A DNA stretch of 64,000 bases, from positions 1 to 64,000 of the forward strand of contig JAFTFO010000040.1 of assembly GCA_017449495.1 (NCBI GenBank), in the 5' to 3' direction. Below are positions 53,270 through 60,669 of this stretch, piece after piece. The translations under genes were made by a program, and so were the position numbers. Position 1 is the first letter of the stretch. Each line of letters starts with the position of its first letter. A model generated the notes under the pieces. That model searched no databases and was not told where the DNA came from. It worked only from the letters and a program-made list of their open reading frames with translations. The stretch is from Prevotella sp. Its GTDB lineage: Bacteria; Bacteroidota; Bacteroidia; Bacteroidales; Bacteroidaceae.

Positions 53270-53429
53270 ACGGTAGTAAGGATAGGGTAAAACCCCTGTG
53301 ATGATGCCTGTTAACCCCTATAAACTGCCATCAGTATCCCTGTTAACAGGCATCATCAACAACATAAGAAGGCACCTGTAACAACGATATAAAGCATCAA
53401 TAACAACATAAGAAGGCACCTGCAACAAC
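53270..53429. repeat. Dispersed stem-loop repeat, copy 1
   Basis: TGATGATGCCTGTTAAC (53299-53315) pairs perfectly with GTTAACAGGCATCATCA (53342-53358). Positions 53279-53325 match 57307-57353 at about 43 of 47 bases, and similarity continues on both sides. Downstream, a unit containing ATAAGAAGGCACCTG is repeated with a 44-base period (about 53358 and 53402). No coding capacity is evident. Confidence 0.75.
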
Positions 53430-53694: not shown

Positions 53695-53726
53695 TTTGGT
53701 TATTTCGTTACTTCTTCGTACCTTTG
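53695..53726 (+). promoter_or_regulatory. Well-formed promoter of the accessory island operon
   Basis: TTTG (53695-53698) and TACCTTTG (53719-53726) are separated by 20 bases, matching the Bacteroidota -33/-7 consensus closely. It precedes the first gene fragment by about 47 bases and could transcribe the whole 53.77-57.35 kb run. Confidence 0.7.
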
Positions 53727-53772
53727 CACCTAATCACTGGCACATACCTCAGAGGAGGGCCTGTGTGACTTT

Positions 53773-53983
53773 GTGGGTAAAACAACGCAGATGGAGCTAA
53801 TTAATAATGTAGGTAAGACGCTGCGCGATGACTTGATGCAGCAGTTGCAGCCAGGAAGTCGATTGTCAATAGCGGCCTCCTGCTTCTCCATCTTGAAAAA
53901 CGTGCCTGTTCTGAGAAACAGACACGTAAAAGATACGAATTGCATCAACAAATTGTGAAACTAAAAGAAGAATTATCCCTGTG
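53773..53983 (+). pseudogene. Fused end fragments: PLD/SNF2-type helicase start and DUF4391-like tail
   Basis: The first part (ATG at 53791) reads MELINNVGKTLRDDLM, then GSRLSIAASCFSI, the typical beginning of large restriction-island helicases with an N-terminal phospholipase D-like domain. After about 34 residues the similarity stops near 53893. In another frame the next 90 bases read LEKRACSEKQTRKRYELH then QQIVKLKEEL and TGA at 53981-53983, a basic coiled tail like that of DUF4391-type proteins. The simplest reading is one deletion from inside the helicase gene into the end of the next gene. No functional protein is expected. Both assignments rest on remembered family patterns. Confidence 0.55.
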
Positions 53984-53987
53984 AGCA

Positions 53988-54869
53988 ATGATAAATAAGA
54001 AATCAATTCGATTCTATAAAGACCATAAAGTTCGTGCTGTATGGGACGAGGAGAACAATCATTGGTGGTTCTCCGTCCTTGATATCGTAGGTGCCATCAA
54101 CGAGCAGGATGACCACGAGAAAAACCGCAACTATTGGAAGTATCTGAAAGCGAAGTTGCGTAAGAAACAGAGTGAGGTGGTTAGTGACACTACCCAACTG
54201 AAACTGACGGCTTCTGATGGTAAGAAGTACAACACCGATGTTATCAGTCAGGCTGGCGTAGAAGAACTCGCAAAATCCATTCGCAACCAGCAGGCTATGG
54301 CCTTTCTGGATTGGTTTAAATATAGCGAGAATACTATCGATGGACAAAGTCGAAAGAAGGCCTATACGCTTTGGGAGAGCAATCTCGTGGCTGATAAAGA
54401 CGTGGGCAAGGTAAAGTCGTTGCAACAAATACATGCTTTCTTGTTCGGAGGTCTCTATGACTTTGCCGGAAAAATCCGCACTAAGACCATCTCAAAAGGC
54501 AACACTCTTTTCTGCCTGGCTGAACATCTGCATAATTATCTGAAGACAGTTGAGGCAATGCCAGAGACGACCTTCGATGAGATTGTAGAAAAGTATGTAG
54601 AGATGAACGCTGCCCATCCGTTTATGGAGGGCAATGGGCGTAGCACTCGTATTTGGCTGGACTTGATTTTCAAGAAACGAATGAAAATGTGCGTAGATTG
54701 GAGTAAGATAGATAAACGTGAATACCTGGATGCGATGATAGCAACCCATATTTCTGATAACAGCAAGATTCGTGAATTATTAAGACAGGCTCTGACAGAC
54801 CGCATTAAAGACCGCGAAATCTTTATGAAAGGTATTGACTATTCATATTATTATGAGCAAGAGGATTGA
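53988..54869 (+). CDS. Bro-N/Fic fusion protein
   Basis: 293 residues. The N-terminal domain (about 5-112: IRFYKDHKVRAVWDEEN, WWFSVLDIVGAI, YWKYLKAKLRK, VISQAGVEELAKSI, FLDWF) is the Bro-N antirepressor-like DNA-binding domain common in phages. The C-terminal domain (about 125-270) is Fic: FGGLYDFAGKIRT and the active-site motif HPFMEGNGRSTR with catalytic His210, Asn216 and Arg218/221 present. Fic enzymes transfer AMP or other phosphate-containing groups to protein hydroxyls. No obvious (S/T)xxxE(G/N) inhibitory helix is seen within the protein, so an external control or DNA-linked control may apply. It starts 4 bases after the preceding pseudogene. Confidence 0.85.
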   Translation: MINKKSIRFYKDHKVRAVWDEENNHWWFSVLDIVGAINEQDDHEKNRNYWKYLKAKLRKKQSEVVSDTTQLKLTASDGKKYNTDVISQAGVEELAKSIRNQQAMAFLDWFKYSENTIDGQSRKKAYTLWESNLVADKDVGKVKSLQQIHAFLFGGLYDFAGKIRTKTISKGNTLFCLAEHLHNYLKTVEAMPETTFDEIVEKYVEMNAAHPFMEGNGRSTRIWLDLIFKKRMKMCVDWSKIDKREYLDAMIATHISDNSKIRELLRQALTDRIKDREIFMKGIDYSYYYEQED

Positions 54870-54891
54870 AGAAGAATAAAACAATACAATA

Positions 54892-55120
54892 ATGGAAAAA
54901 CTGAATATGCAGACCACCAACGTCGTGGATGAGAATATAAAGAGGATTGGGGAGTTGTTCCCTAATTGCTTGACGGAACGACTGAATGAGAAAGGACAGC
55001 CGGAAACGGCTATCGACTTCGACCAACTCAGACAGGAGTCTCGCCAACGACCAAGTAGCCGACAACTTCGAGCAGATATTCGAGTACTATAGTAAAGATA
55101 CAATCAGAAGAATACTGTAA
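54892..55120 (+). pseudogene. Type III Mod (DNA methyltransferase) N-terminal fragment with foreign tail
   Basis: The frame from 54892 gives MEKLNMQTTNVVDENIKRIG, then ELFPNCLTERLNEKGQPE and AIDFDQLRQE, the recognisable first 45-48 residues of type III restriction-modification methyltransferases (usually over 600 residues). From about 55029 the similarity continues only in another frame (SLANDQVADNFEQIFEYYSK, then TAA at 55118-55120), a tail I cannot assign. None of the methyltransferase motifs (FxGxG, DPPY) remain. It lies 22 bases after the Bro-N/Fic gene. Confidence 0.6.
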
Positions 55121-55133
55121 AATATGTAAGACT

Positions 55134-56423
55134 ATGGATATGGAAAAATCATGGAGTATTGCCTTGGAATCAATAGCTATTGTAAGTGTTCTTAGTGCAA
55201 TAGTGTATGGTGCAATATACGGGCTCTTGAGATTCTATCAAGATTATCGCGAGAGACGAATAATAGAATATGAAAATTTTCAAAAATCTTTTGATAATCT
55301 TGTTTCGAATTTAACATCAAATAATCCTGCAGCTCAATTGTCAGCAGCCGTACTACTTAGGAGATATTTTAAGGTCTCACAAGATGACAATTCAGAAATA
55401 ATTGATTCACGAATCGCACGATTTATTTCTAATAAGGCAAAAAAATATTTGAGACCAATTGACTTGAAATATAAAAAGGATTTGAGATTAGAAGCGATAA
55501 GCGAAATTTCTTCTTTACTACGGAGGTTACCAACAGGTGTTTTTCAAAAAACCTTGGCTGATGGCTTGGGATTTGCCACAGACTTGTCTTTCTGTGATTT
55601 GCAAAAAACAAATTTGCAAGATGTCTTGTTAGATAACAAATATCAAGATATTATTATGAGAAAGACAGATTTTTATCTTTCAGATTTATCTTATGCTAAT
55701 CTCGAAGGTATTGTAGGACATGAAATTATCTTCTATCATGCAATTTTGTTCTGTGCTCGTATAAAGAATTGTGATTTTTCGAAGGGCAATTTTAGAGGAG
55801 CAGATTTGACTGATGTTTCATTCAAAAGATGTGACCTTTCTGGGGCTGACTTTACAGATGCAGTAAATATTCCACCATCAATAAAAGAGGTTCTTAATAA
55901 TGGTATATTTCCTGAAGCCTGTGTACTTTCCGCGAAGCATGAGTCTAAAGATAAGGCAATCTTTTTCTCTATGCCAGGTGTGATGTCAAAAACAGACGAG
56001 TTGATTACAAAAGATTATAAACAAATATTGGAAAGAAAAGGATATGAAGTCATTTATTATAAGAGTGACGATTATCCTCGTTTTGGGCAATTTAATAGAG
56101 TGAGACATGATATCATGCGTTCTTCTGGAATGATAGCATTTGGGTTAAAACAAATACACATTCCTCAAGCTTCATATCGTCCAGGAACAAAAGAAGAAAC
56201 CGAATGGAATGGGAAATGGCTCTCTACTCCTTGGAGTGAAGTAGAGGTTGGTATGGGGTTGATGAGAGGCATGCCAATACTTCTTGTATGCGATCCAGAC
56301 ATTAATGATGGCGTGTTTGATGGAGGATTAAGCGAATGTTTTGTCGCAAAAGTCTCTACTACAGAAGATTGCAGGAAAATTGAATATAATAAGTTCGTTG
56401 ATGAGTGGTTATCCAAGTTATAG
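55134..56423 (+). CDS. Membrane-anchored pentapeptide-repeat protein with TIR/deoxyribosyltransferase-like C-terminus
   Basis: 429 residues. One N-terminal membrane helix (about 9-33) precedes a helical region (40-140). Pentapeptide-type repeats (about 148-242) include LSFCDLQKTNLQDV, DLSYANLEG and CDFSKGNFRGADLTDVSFKR. The C-terminal domain (about 273-429) begins AIFFSMPGVMSKTD and contains YEVIYYK, MRSSGMIAFGL and PWSEVEVGMGLMRGMPILLV. The last segment looks like the Glu-containing active-site helix and following strand of nucleoside 2-deoxyribosyltransferase or TIR-like NAD-cleaving domains (Glu349/Glu351). Codon use is far more AT-rich than the core genes. A defence effector is plausible from the context, but no such combination is known to me. 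Confidence 0.6.
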   Translation: MDMEKSWSIALESIAIVSVLSAIVYGAIYGLLRFYQDYRERRIIEYENFQKSFDNLVSNLTSNNPAAQLSAAVLLRRYFKVSQDDNSEIIDSRIARFISNKAKKYLRPIDLKYKKDLRLEAISEISSLLRRLPTGVFQKTLADGLGFATDLSFCDLQKTNLQDVLLDNKYQDIIMRKTDFYLSDLSYANLEGIVGHEIIFYHAILFCARIKNCDFSKGNFRGADLTDVSFKRCDLSGADFTDAVNIPPSIKEVLNNGIFPEACVLSAKHESKDKAIFFSMPGVMSKTDELITKDYKQILERKGYEVIYYKSDDYPRFGQFNRVRHDIMRSSGMIAFGLKQIHIPQASYRPGTKEETEWNGKWLSTPWSEVEVGMGLMRGMPILLVCDPDINDGVFDGGLSECFVAKVSTTEDCRKIEYNKFVDEWLSKL

Positions 56424-56527
56424 CAGAAAAAGAATAGGGAATCGTTATATATGAAAGGTAACTACATAAATAATTGTAGAATGAAATTCAAATTAAGGCA
56501 AACAACAATTGGTTTAACAATTCATAC

Positions 56528-57250
56528 ATGAAACGAATCTACGAATACGAAGACTTGCAACCAGTATTTTATCGGTTGCTGCAAGATAAGGAGTCGAGTG
56601 ACTTGGAGTTTAAGTCGGCGAAAGGGGGATTTCCTCATTCGTTTTGGGAAACGTATTCCTCGTTTGCCAATACGGATGGTGGGGCCTTGACTTTAGCATT
56701 GGCCTACTCGGAAGAAGAAATAACCAACGAGCGACTTCAACATGCACTGAATATGCATAAGGCTGATATTACAGCGATGTTGGGACAGATGTGTGCAACA
56801 CATTTACTTGAGTCTTCTGGTCATGGAAGGGGAACGAAGTCTCATGTTTATGGACTAAATGTTGCTCTTCCAAAGCCTAATGTTGCTCTTGCAAGTGGTA
56901 ATGTTGCTCTTAATATGGATACCTCAGAGTCTAATATTGCTCTTCAAGGCGCTAATATGGGACTTAATATCGGACTTCCTGATGCTAATATAGGACTTAA
57001 TGTAGGACTTCCAGAGGCTAATGTTGCTCTTCCAAAACGATACACGAGAGAACAACTTAAAGAGAAAATCAGGGAAATATGCATGGACTGGGTTACAGTT
57101 GACATAATCGCAGCTCGATTAAATAGAGATGTGAGGTACGTTAAGAACCATATACTTCCGCAATTCTCTGACATGATAGAAAAGATGTATGACATACCCC
57201 ATCATCCAAGACAGAAATACAGGACAAAGCAGAAGGAGGACGGAGAATGA
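56528..57250 (+). CDS. AlbA_2/Schlafen-type protein, internally shortened, with NVAL repeats
   Basis: 240 residues. Residues about 18-55 (KESSDLEFKSAKGGFPHSFW, then SSFANTDGG) match the start of AlbA_2 DNA/RNA-binding domains. The domain then stops abruptly and is joined to EEEITNERLQHALNMHKADI with CATHLLESSGHGRGTKSHVYG, a winged-helix segment that normally lies several hundred residues later. Next is a tract (about 110-168) of NVAL/NIGL-type repeats (LNVALPKPNVALASGNVAL, ANMGLNIGLPDANIGLNVGL), then a basic C-terminal part with another HTH-like segment. The frame is preserved, so a product may be made, but half the AlbA_2 domain is missing. It overlaps the Res fragment by 4 bases. Confidence 0.6.
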   Translation: MKRIYEYEDLQPVFYRLLQDKESSDLEFKSAKGGFPHSFWETYSSFANTDGGALTLALAYSEEEITNERLQHALNMHKADITAMLGQMCATHLLESSGHGRGTKSHVYGLNVALPKPNVALASGNVALNMDTSESNIALQGANMGLNIGLPDANIGLNVGLPEANVALPKRYTREQLKEKIREICMDWVTVDIIAARLNRDVRYVKNHILPQFSDMIEKMYDIPHHPRQKYRTKQKEDGE

Positions 57251-57351
57251 AGTTTAAGTTTAAGATACAACAATACCAGACGGAGGCGGTGGAGCAGACG
57301 GTAGAAAGGATAGGGGAAAACTCCTGTGATGATGCCTGTTTACCCCTATAA
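57247..57351 (+). pseudogene. Type III restriction Res subunit, N-terminal stub
   Basis: An ATG overlapping the previous stop opens MKFKFKIQQYQTEAVEQT, the recognisable start of type III Res helicase-nuclease subunits (normally about 900-1000 residues). After about 18-20 codons the sequence passes into the dispersed repeat (57297-57420), and the frame ends at TAA 57349-57351 within its loop. No helicase or nuclease motif remains. Confidence 0.6.
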
Positions 57352-57420
57352 ACAGGCATCATCGTCCCTGTTAGGAGGCATCAGCAACAATATAATGAAG
57401 CATCAGCAACAGCGATGATG
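57297..57420. repeat. Dispersed stem-loop repeat, copy 2
   Basis: GATGATGCCTGTTT (57328-57341) pairs perfectly with AAACAGGCATCATC (57350-57363) around an 8-base loop. The block from about 57297 resembles copy 1 (53270 onward), including the following TCCCTGTTA..AGGCATCA segment. It replaces the body of the Res gene. Confidence 0.75.
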
Positions 57421-57766: not shown

Positions 57767-58303
57767 TTACCAGCTCCAGATGCTGGTATTCGTATTGTTG
57801 CTGCGCTGCTCTGTAGTAGTATTTCCGAAAGAATCCGTATGGCTCGATGAAGAACCTATAACCTGGCCATTGTTATTGCTATAGGTGGTCGTTGTATTTC
57901 CAAAACTATCTGTGTAGCTGTTTGAAGATCCAGTATATCCACCATTGCCATTGGAATACGTTGTATGGGTATTCCCAAAACTGTCAGTATAGCTGTTTGA
58001 AGATCCGATGTAACCACCATTGGCATTTTGGTGTCTCGTTGTTGTGTTACCAAAACAGTCCGTTGAGGTTGTAGAGGTACCTATAACACGGCCATTTCGA
58101 TCTCTGTGAGTGGTCGTCGTGTTACCAAAACTATCCGTATAGGACGATGATGTACCCGTGATGCCCCCATTTGCATTTCGATGGGTACTTGTGCTGTTTC
58201 CGAAACTGTCGGTATATCTTGAAGACGAACCAACGTTATAACCCTGTGCGTTTGCTGCGATGGCGAATGTGACAGCCATCAATGTCACCATTAACTTCTT
58301 CAT
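57767..58303 (-). CDS. Secreted protein of six 25-residue TDSFGN repeats
   Basis: 178 residues from the ATG at 58303 (MKKLMVTLMAVTFAIAANAQ signal peptide). The mature part is six tandem units of about 25 residues with the pattern G(S/T)S.S(Y)TDSFGNTTT....N.NG..(I/T), for example GTSSSYTDSFGNTTTTHRD. One unit has Cys in TDCFGN. The repeats are rich in Ser, Thr, Asn and Gly and close in DNA sequence (75-base period), so copy number can change easily. A beta-structured or amyloid-like extracellular role is conceivable; no family is recognised. The next gene in the same orientation, upstream at 58399-58857, also encodes an exported protein. Confidence 0.75.
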   Translation of the reverse strand: MKKLMVTLMAVTFAIAANAQGYNVGSSSRYTDSFGNSTSTHRNANGGITGTSSSYTDSFGNTTTTHRDRNGRVIGTSTTSTDCFGNTTTRHQNANGGYIGSSNSYTDSFGNTHTTYSNGNGGYTGSSNSYTDSFGNTTTTYSNNNGQVIGSSSSHTDSFGNTTTEQRSNNTNTSIWSW

Positions 58304-58398
58304 AATTCTAATGTTTAAATTGTTACTAATTTGTTGTTCTTTTGCCTCTTTATACCAGAACCATTCAAAAGGTAACCACACAATTGAAATTATTTTTT

Positions 58399-58987: not shown

Positions 58988-58995
58988 TATCTTTG
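58988..58995 (+). promoter_or_regulatory. -7 box for the CHAT gene pair
   Basis: TATCTTTG nine bases before the ATG at 59005. It excludes an upstream TTG (58993) as start. Confidence 0.6.
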
Positions 58996-59004
58996 CCCCA
59001 TGAT

Positions 59005-60669
59005 ATGAAGCAACTTCTATGGATATTATTAACAGTAGGATTATTTGTTCAAAAGTCAAATGGGCAGATAAGTGAAGTTAGTATTGACAGAGCTATGTCT
59101 CTATCAAACATGGCAGATTTCTATTATACTGCCCATAATTATGAGAAGGCAATAGAGCAAGAAAAGAAAGCACTTGAAATGAAGAGTGTACTCTATGGTA
59201 TACATAGTTTGGAATATGCGATATCCTCATATAACCTCGCTAAGTATTATTATGAGAAAGGGGTTGAGGGTGAGATAGATGGCAAACGATCAGACTTTAT
59301 TTTTGCAACAGATTATGCGAAGAGGTCTATGGCTATTATAAAGGATTCTGTTCTTTTCGAGATGAAAGATATGGATTATAGTTCAAGGTATCAGTTGTGG
59401 CAGAACGTAAATACCATTTTTGTCAACACCTTTCCGAGCTATGTGGCGAAAAATCCCAATGACTCTACTTTATCCGATCTTTACAATATTGTACTATTCT
59501 CAAAAGGAATAACCTGGAGGAGAGGAGGTGGCACAAATACTCTGTGTTGGAAAGACATACAGAACGCACTTGGTAAGAAGGATATAGCGATTGAATTTAT
59601 AGCACCCGTGGTACCGTCTAATGATAATATTGTGTTTTATGCGTTGACAATTCAAAAGGGATATAGATGCCCTAAGATGACAAGGTTGTTTGATATCCTG
59701 CAGTTTCAAGACTCATTAAAATCTTGTGACACAAAAGTCGAAAAAAACCAAAAGATCGGAGATATGGTCTGGACTCCTCTTAATAATGAACTCATGGGTA
59801 TGGAGAAAATCTATTTTTCCGCAACGCATGTGCTGAACAATATGCCTATTGAGTATATGCCAATAACAGACACGGAAACCTACAACGACAGATATTGCAT
59901 GATAAGGGTTTCGTCTACTCAAGAAATTGCGAATAATAAAGCACATAATCACTTTAACAAAGCTGCCCTATTCGGAGGATTGCAATATGAGGCATTAGAG
60001 GCGAAAGGTGAAGGGAAAATAGAAAGAAGTGGATTTGAACCTTTACCAAATACAGGAGAAGAGGTCGCTGAGATTGCGGATGTATTTGAAAATAGTAATA
60101 TCGACTACAAAGTATTTTCTGGTGATGAAGGAACGGAATCATTATTCAAGTCTCTTTCCGGAAGTTCTATTGACATCCTTCATTTAGCTACTCACGGAAA
60201 GTATATAGTCAATGATGTCGTCGAGGGGTATCATGATGGTGATAATGCTTTAACGAATTCGGTACTTGCTTTTTCTGGAGTAAATGAACGGCCTATATCT
60301 GGATTGGAACAAGATGATGGTATAGTAACTGCGTTAGATATATCACAAATGAATCTTCCAAATCTTGATCTCGTTTCTTTATCAGCCTGTGAGTCTGCTT
60401 TGGGTGAGTATGGATTAGATGACAGTATCATGGGATTACAACGTGGTTTCAAAATTGCAGGAGCAAATACAATATTAATGAGTTTGGGTAAAGTGGATGA
60501 TGAGGCTACTAGAATACTTATGATAGAGTTCTATCGCAATCTTATGAGTGGAAAGACAAAACATCAATCCCTCAAAGATGCCCAGAAATATCTTCGTCAG
60601 GTTGAGAATGGGAAATATGACAAGCCTGAATACTGGGCCTCATTCGTAATGTTAGATGGATTAAACTAA
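59005..60669 (+). CDS. Exported TPR-CHAT (caspase-like) protein 1
   Basis: 554 residues from the ATG at 59005. A signal peptide (MKQLLWILLTVGLFVQKSNG) precedes TPR-like helices (ADFYYTAHNYEKAIEQEKKAL, YAISSYNLAKYYYEKG) and a helical linker. The CHAT domain covers about the last 300 residues: LHLATHGKY with catalytic His397, and VSLSACESALGEYGLDD with catalytic Cys462, followed by GLQRGFKIAGANTILMSLGKVDDEAT. Both residues of the caspase-type dyad are present, so it is probably an active cysteine peptidase. Export is unusual for CHAT proteins studied as defence or cell-death enzymes. It is AT-rich and 18 bases upstream of a larger CHAT gene. Confidence 0.82.
   Translation: MKQLLWILLTVGLFVQKSNGQISEVSIDRAMSLSNMADFYYTAHNYEKAIEQEKKALEMKSVLYGIHSLEYAISSYNLAKYYYEKGVEGEIDGKRSDFIFATDYAKRSMAIIKDSVLFEMKDMDYSSRYQLWQNVNTIFVNTFPSYVAKNPNDSTLSDLYNIVLFSKGITWRRGGGTNTLCWKDIQNALGKKDIAIEFIAPVVPSNDNIVFYALTIQKGYRCPKMTRLFDILQFQDSLKSCDTKVEKNQKIGDMVWTPLNNELMGMEKIYFSATHVLNNMPIEYMPITDTETYNDRYCMIRVSSTQEIANNKAHNHFNKAALFGGLQYEALEAKGEGKIERSGFEPLPNTGEEVAEIADVFENSNIDYKVFSGDEGTESLFKSLSGSSIDILHLATHGKYIVNDVVEGYHDGDNALTNSVLAFSGVNERPISGLEQDDGIVTALDISQMNLPNLDLVSLSACESALGEYGLDDSIMGLQRGFKIAGANTILMSLGKVDDEATRILMIEFYRNLMSGKTKHQSLKDAQKYLRQVENGKYDKPEYWASFVMLDGLN

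Follow-up and report, generated by a model that had tools for sequence, protein, structure and literature searches.

The 64,000-nucleotide (nt) stretch of Prevotella sp. DNA analysed here (hereafter the window; GenBank assembly GCA_017449495.1, contig JAFTFO010000040.1, our C7, from a host assembly of 2.24 Mb in 47 contigs that is 68% complete) holds what is very probably, to judge from its sequence, a passenger-carrying type III restriction-modification (R-M) island that was recently taken apart by stepwise deletion. At its head stands the remnant of a structured leader RNA, and it is this RNA, rather than the collapse, that is the main interest of the finding: the collapse itself is a clear case of ordinary decay, and it exposes a large covarying leader that, within one bacterial family, R-M operons of types I, II, IIG and III have in common. 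How hosts restrain unrelated R-M operons is an open question, and one common RNA would make that question directly testable. In addition, an R-M system that dissolves stepwise, with two passengers outliving it, offers a natural test of embedded defence genes working alone.

When the DNA of the region was searched against 299 genomes of the genus, pieces of it were found in register and spread over larger islands (among the matches listed). The stretch from the promoter to the helicase start, whose promoter-bearing half has matches at many sites across the genus, matches at least 22 places ahead of genes that by eye resemble unrelated R-M genes, again among the matches listed, and an alignment from promoter to start codon contains about 300 conserved nucleotides. 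Copies of the RNA lie, for example, at L064 2799-3104, L052 12834-13108 and L195 10008-10330 (L and G numbers denote loci and genomes). A leader profile built from 19 sequences finds a near-complete leader before the clade-A helicases of L052, L055, L058, L059, L155 and L167, as well as before those of clade B in L188 and L195; it gives no match in L054, L210, L061, L115 or L187, a weak partial one in L184, and in the window a match to model positions 1-77 only, corresponding to the P1/P1b hairpin and short flanks. Since only these positions match and a full leader precedes the helicases of relatives, the window has most likely lost the RNA body at a junction designated J0. The body is also gone in G182 and G357, ahead of full-length helicase frames of 1075 and 1076 amino acids (aa) (L116, about 769-942, and L165, 1290-1477), with end points that differ from those of the window. 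To the eye, another conserved leader (CGTCTCTTAGGAAGAGATG ... TATCGAGACACTGC) seems to head the helicase islands L054 (1-167), L210 (1-183) and L187 (about 400-818); because these other islands carry it, leaders seem to be exchanged between islands.

Compensatory change supports a defined secondary structure. Across 48 pairs in 40 core sequences (an alignment that omits the five divergent leaders L128, L130, L131, L197 and L203), 89.5% of cells are paired, against 32.4-42.0% when partners are slid by 1-3 columns, a comparison in which the helices were drawn from L064 and which favours structures taken from their own sequences. Cells with a double change number 313 against 100 +/- 9 in shuffled alignments (0 of 500 as high), the covariation score is 0.463 against 0.208, and 29 pairs show a double change against 24.4 (3 of 500), although the shuffles ignore relatedness; further pair types do not rise above the shuffles (84 against 85.2; 348 of 500). 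Because the slid and shuffled controls are biased, it is the compensatory changes over several pair types that carry weight. Helices P3, P4, P7 and P10 are paired in 95-99% of cells, P2 in 87.8%, and P5 and P11 in about 75%, while P6 and P8 looked weak; the 5' hairpin P1/P1b, which is the part left in the window, has double changes in a separate 19-sequence alignment. Finally, P7 (98.3% paired) and P12 (92.7%) use one strand in common. Double changes in P12 number 22, where shuffles give 6.3, and behind the 3' strand of P12 comes a U-rich run averaging 6.6 T in 9 nt, at an overall T fraction of 0.30.

With this architecture, the leader looks like an RNA switch or attenuator. Formation of P7 would prevent transcription from ending after P12, or the two helices would act the other way round, and the RNA would meter operon expression in answer to a signal; removal of its body would leave the promoter unmetered, with constant expression of the Fic and pentapeptide genes in the window as the predicted result. 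Our fuller proposal is a tentative one: that this is an undescribed RNA switch of ~300 nt found across Bacteroidales, that in Prevotellaceae it would act as the common 5' controller of otherwise unrelated R-M operons, that its mutually exclusive helices would decide transcription, and that deletion of the body would lock the operon on. Like the leader RNAs and riboswitches of Rfam 15, it is structured, lies between the promoter and the first gene, and has a helix trailed by a U-rich run; unlike them, it has no Rfam match. Specifically, no Rfam 15 family matched the RNA at E up to 10 in the 551-base L064 stretch (one chance match of E 9.3 lay elsewhere in a stretch), none matched it at E up to 1 in eight distant loci, where all seven matches lay off the RNA, and none matched it at the gathering threshold in 13 loci, where a cobalamin riboswitch was found elsewhere in L191. 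One of those seven is a DUF805 RNA (Rfam RF03081) in L281, which a copy of the new RNA immediately precedes (520-636 and 704-773), placing two structured leaders in tandem. No paper describing this RNA was recognised in the literature covered, which included parts of PMC8040213 and PMC11697453; preprints and most subscription papers fell outside that coverage, and novelty is accordingly unproven.

By DNA similarity to one copy, the leader occurs in 31 of 389 genomes of the family, representing 9 of 30 genera, and the match in the host genome is the window hairpin. A covariance model of the central domain extends this to 59 of 198 genomes of the order and 50 of 151 genera, with up to 17 matches per genome. 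The downstream gene, taken as the longest frame starting within 450 nt 3' and scanned against PADLOC at E 1e-5, belongs to a defence family at 25 of the 29 family-level loci (10/10, 7/10 and 8/9; all 29 tested), several of which are close relatives of each other and hence not independent. Most of these genes encode methyltransferases of types I, II, IIG and III or PLD-type helicases, and the four loci without a defence match are L241, L245, L247 and L251; as an upstream control, the nearest frame was a defence gene in 0 of 10 cases (10 of 26 available open reading frames, which are shorter on average). Order-wide, half of ten downstream genes are R-M genes (10 of 30 loci, chosen after the reading frames had been seen), and many others appear by eye to be secreted-type or unknown; the host genome itself has two further weak copies (47.6 and 32.2 bits) before genes of secreted type (by eye). 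Specificity for R-M therefore holds in the family and fails in the order: because the order-wide genes are mixed, this is not an R-M RNA everywhere, but one that mostly heads R-M operons in the family. At L204, upstream of 8481, a partial leader precedes a gene that, by eye, is not of R-M type and looks instead like a zinc-ribbon transposase.

The genes behind the leader remnant can be read against intact islands, whose genes were assigned by Pfam and PADLOC. The reference island L052 encodes, in this order, a helicase of 1109 aa, a DUF4391 protein of 201 aa, a passenger of 226 aa, a Mod of 677 aa and a Res of 1014 aa, the last two matching PADLOC MTase_III and REase_III at E 1.1e-206 and 2.6e-291, respectively. 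Intact islands of matching order are known among other relatives, including L210, with a pentapeptide gene between Mod and Res, and the passengers at the DUF4391-Mod and Mod-Res slots vary between genomes. Alone, the helicase, DUF4391, Mod and Res fragments of the window give no Pfam match of note; their identities come from alignment with intact relatives. End fragments, order and slots all agree with L052 and L210 (Table 1).

Table 1. Features of the collapsed island and its left border in the window
Feature	Position	Strand	Basis or remark
Left repeat copy	53270..53388	+	hairpin-rich block of ~119 nt; 22-nt units from about 53209
Promoter-like TTTG and TACCTTTG	53695-53698 and 53719-53726	+	sequence
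Leader RNA hairpin P1/P1b	53735..53765	+	nhmmer leader model positions 1-77, 70 bits
J0, TAAAACAA	53778..53785	+	two ends of the absent RNA body joined, about 240 nt lost
Helicase remnant, codons 1-34	53791..53893	+	88% to L052 helicase 1-34
DUF4391 remnant, last ~29 residues	53892..53984	+	intact-island alignment; frame other than that of the helicase
Bro-N/Fic gene, whole, slot-1 passenger	53988..54869	+	PADLOC PDC-S04 match
Mod methyltransferase remnant, codons 1-49	54892..55039	+	84% to L052 Mod 1-49
Mod remnant, last 29 residues	55031..55120	+	83% to L052 Mod 649-677; other frame
Pentapeptide-repeat gene, whole, slot-2 passenger	55134..56423	+	65% to L210 5925-7109
Schlafen/AlbA-type gene, collapsed in frame, 240 aa	56528..57250	+	N ~55 and C ~185 residues of 615-aa L065 relative
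Res remnant, codons 1-19	57247..57303	+	19/19 residues identical to L052
J4	57298..57416	+	Res fused via ACGGTA (6 nt) to the middle of the second repeat copy, which is without its 5' half

Comparison with relatives shows five gene or leader junctions in this assembly, J0 to J4, between 53,712 and 57,416. A sequence-only reading of the region had recognised a collapsed type III restriction-like operon behind a strong promoter; the observation was correct, and the collapse is larger than was stated, since it takes in the leader and a Schlafen/AlbA-type gene. A promoter-like motif is present, TTTG followed by TACCTTTG, which we take to be of the Bacteroidetes type. When the deletion endpoints were mapped on intact relatives, the helicase, DUF4391, Mod and Res fragments all matched islands, and the extents proposed earlier were closely borne out: about 34 helicase codons with a DUF4391-like tail became codons 1-34 with the last ~29 residues, 45-48 Mod codons with a short tail became 49 with the last 29 residues, and 18-20 Res codons became 19. 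The Mod and Res ends are thus homologous to type III R-M (Mod/Res; PADLOC MTase_III and REase_III). Unlike that system, the window retains no catalytic part of either protein: a complete Mod with its N6_N4_Mtase domain and a complete Res with helicase and endonuclease domains are both absent.

At J0, the 3' side TAAAACAA is present in L052 and L059; on the 5' side, TAAAACAA is found in L196 and L193 and TAAA alone is common to L052 and L059, giving 4-8 nt shared. J1, at 53891-53895, leads from helicase codons into the DUF4391 tail across 2 shared nt, with a loss of 3.76 kb relative to L052 or 3.64 kb relative to L059. J2 has an imperfect overlap of 7-9 nt (55031-55039) and a loss of about 1.6-1.8 kb. 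At J3, near 56686-56700, about 1.2 kb is absent from the Schlafen/AlbA-type gene, and the Pfam score of the window gene itself (E 0.001) is under the curated cut-off.

The ancestral island would have consisted, in order, of the leader RNA, a PLD/SNF2 helicase, DUF4391, slot 1, Mod, slot 2 and Res, with the Fic gene in slot 1 and the pentapeptide and Schlafen-type genes in slot 2. Separate deletions, mostly between short repeats, would have taken the body of the RNA, then, gene by gene along the island, helicase/DUF4391, Mod, a portion of the Schlafen gene, and Res together with the flank 3' of it, leaving the promoter and truncated leader ahead of two whole passenger genes. The deletions would be the work of ordinary illegitimate recombination, loss of the R-M system may have been neutral or favoured, the passengers would act on their own, and loss of the RNA body would free transcription. 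Several points weigh against this account. No short repeat is visible at J3 in the relatives examined, J1 shares only 2 nt, and J0 only 4 nt when set against the nearest islands. The J1 junctions of the window and of G129 fall within ~60 nt of each other, so that both could stem from a single event with two rounds of trimming, or from a hotspot. The leader is not on all islands (L054 and L210 have another), so that here it is the remaining hairpin that points to its having once been present. Finally, in a naive simulation of five random deletions of the observed sizes, Fic and pentapeptide genes were both spared in 145 of 100,000 runs, a figure that leaves aside selection against other outcomes and concerns a case picked because its passengers survive. 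As for whether the joins might be artefacts of a metagenome-derived genome, the 68% completeness and 47 contigs of the assembly could suggest as much; overlaps of 2-9 nt are, however, far shorter than usual assembly k-mers, so that reads crossing the junctions must presumably exist, and similar joins are found in other genomes, making such an origin very unlikely.

Collapse of this kind is also seen elsewhere in the genus. Among 398 genomes, the helicase N-terminus gave 47 matches in 42 genomes, which were classed by open frame, coordinates and inspection as 32 frames of at least 1065 aa, six cuts at contig ends (four from coordinates, two from fetched contigs), two frameshifts (G294 and G025), two truncations with no further helicase piece nearby (G274 and G083), and five internal collapses (the window, G129, G100, G229 and G143). 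In G143 (L185 11059-11694), an in-frame fusion of helicase codons 1-83 with DUF4391 residues 114-225 produces a 211-aa frame that Pfam matches to DUF4391 at E 5.6e-10; in G100 (L115 13645-14535), a single 296-aa frame runs through three successive pieces of the helicase. In G229, codons 1-68 are followed by an internal piece of ~15 residues, and in G129, helicase residues 9-42 meet DUF4391 159-201, the first codons having been replaced. Full-length Mod and Res frames lie behind the collapsed helicase in G143 and G229 (L185 and L184). Because such collapses recur, core genes cut to pieces with the front end kept are a repeated outcome and not a unique one. The suggestion, made from the sequence alone, that a regulatory or spacer role maintains the fragments might draw on the short N-terminal pieces in seven genomes (the five internal collapses and two truncations) and on the in-frame products, such as the 211-aa fusion with a DUF4391 C-terminus and the 296-aa triple piece. 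It found no direct support, however: the helicase/DUF4391 and Mod joins of the window (J1 and J2) are frameshifted, break points vary among genomes, and conservation is no greater than recency explains. We consider maintenance in such a role highly improbable.

Stepwise deletion of the window island appears to have been recent. The proportions of differing synonymous (pS) and nonsynonymous (pN) sites are 0.53 and 0.038 for the Mod remnant against L051, 0.70 and 0.025 for the helicase remnant against L059, and 0.58 and 0.057 for the latter against L052; the least extreme remnant comparison, with L210, gives 0.52 and 0.140. Because most of the differences between remnants and relatives are synonymous, the collapse is probably recent, and because intact genes would then be expected anyway, whole passengers alone are no proof of selection.

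The Bro-N/Fic gene contains by eye the sequence HPFxxGNGR, which we take to be the Fic motif, and matches PADLOC PDC-S04 over its full length (1-292 of 292, E 1.5e-152). A Fic-like gene occupies the equal slot, 3' of DUF4391, in a relative (L060, G182; 55% over residues 117-290); by eye, the close relatives L107 and L109 have no adjoining R-M gene, and L108 and L111 adjoin other R-M or helicase genes. PDCs are PADLOC candidates found by guilt-by-embedding, according to the portion consulted of PMC12988326, and defence genes inside other defence systems (PDCs and embedded systems) are described in portions of that paper and of PMC12255303. In the window, by contrast with such cases, the R-M host has been lost and the embedded gene orphaned; an anti-phage role here is a candidate one. 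DarTG2 in a type I R-M island, as presented in the part of PMC12255303 consulted, likewise places passenger defence genes between R-M core genes; it is regulated by a repressor, RptR, whereas the head of the window operon has a structured-RNA remnant instead.

The pentapeptide protein has a hydrophobic N-terminus, pentapeptide repeats and a C-terminal domain without family assignment. It aligns along its length with relatives in a 13-row alignment, in which several rows are trimmed at the N-terminus and one stops where its contig does. Scanning one genome per species yielded 13 related loci, the best (65%) being L210, from a Mediterranea metagenome-assembled genome, where the gene lies between intact Mod and Res. 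In ten of the 12 others, the stretch covered contains nothing that matches helicase, DUF4391, Mod or Res, although some contigs are short; the remaining two are L219, close to a helicase-DUF4391 pair, and L222, close to a helicase remnant. An earlier description of the gene as TIR-like was not upheld, Pfam and NCBIfam returning pentapeptide families only, and matches to the Protein Data Bank (up to E 1e-3) are confined to the repeat region.

It had also been proposed that the core was cut to its ends with the passengers spared, that this is hard to explain by random decay, and that selection keeps the passengers. The first holds for the Fic and pentapeptide genes and overlooked a third passenger, the collapsed Schlafen/AlbA-type gene. 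The second agrees with the naive simulation, within the limits of that simulation given above. The third is plausible but unproven: the passengers may be held as stand-alone defence genes, with surviving deletions being those that keep promoter, order and translational coupling. The low simulated fraction (0.00145), the fit of Fic to an embedded-defence candidate family, the pentapeptide relatives that stand apart from R-M core genes, and retained ends that adjoin overlapping or adjacent start codons are all consistent with such selection. Set against these are the recent-looking collapse, which predicts whole genes without selection, the collapse of the Schlafen passenger, and a pentapeptide gene in G100 that is a C-terminal remnant only, and we rate selection as possible, somewhat short of probable. 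A test of nonsynonymous against synonymous substitution rates (dN/dS) on the passengers was set aside, as synonymous sites are near or at saturation and no post-collapse signal is readable.

The repeats that flank the island belong to a dispersed intergenic element in which 22-nt GTTTGAGTATACGC... units lead into a palindromic block, GATGATGCCTGTT...AACAGGCATC, with 17 matches in the host genome at E < 1e-20 (the two window copies and 15 elsewhere) and 29 at E up to 1. The units precede the block in 13 of 14 forward-orientation copies shown, the sole exception being the copy behind Res. Because this right copy is without its 5' 22-nt units, the Res deletion terminated inside the repeat, and the copy is the landing point of that deletion and nothing more. 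Recombination between the two 119-nt repeats that flank the island was rejected as the cause of the loss, both copies and the intervening island still being there, and so was the repeat as an island border, given its dispersal through the genome. A plasmid origin was likewise discarded: of the 552 plasmid records with a match, none was matched across more than 80% of the query, and the 20 listed all lie in the Fic gene. Farther downstream in the window, 57767-58309 (minus strand) encodes a secreted-type protein built from 25-residue repeats (units of 75 nt), and 58993-60669 encodes a protein that is TPR/CHAT-like by eye, with a paralogue from about 62960 on.

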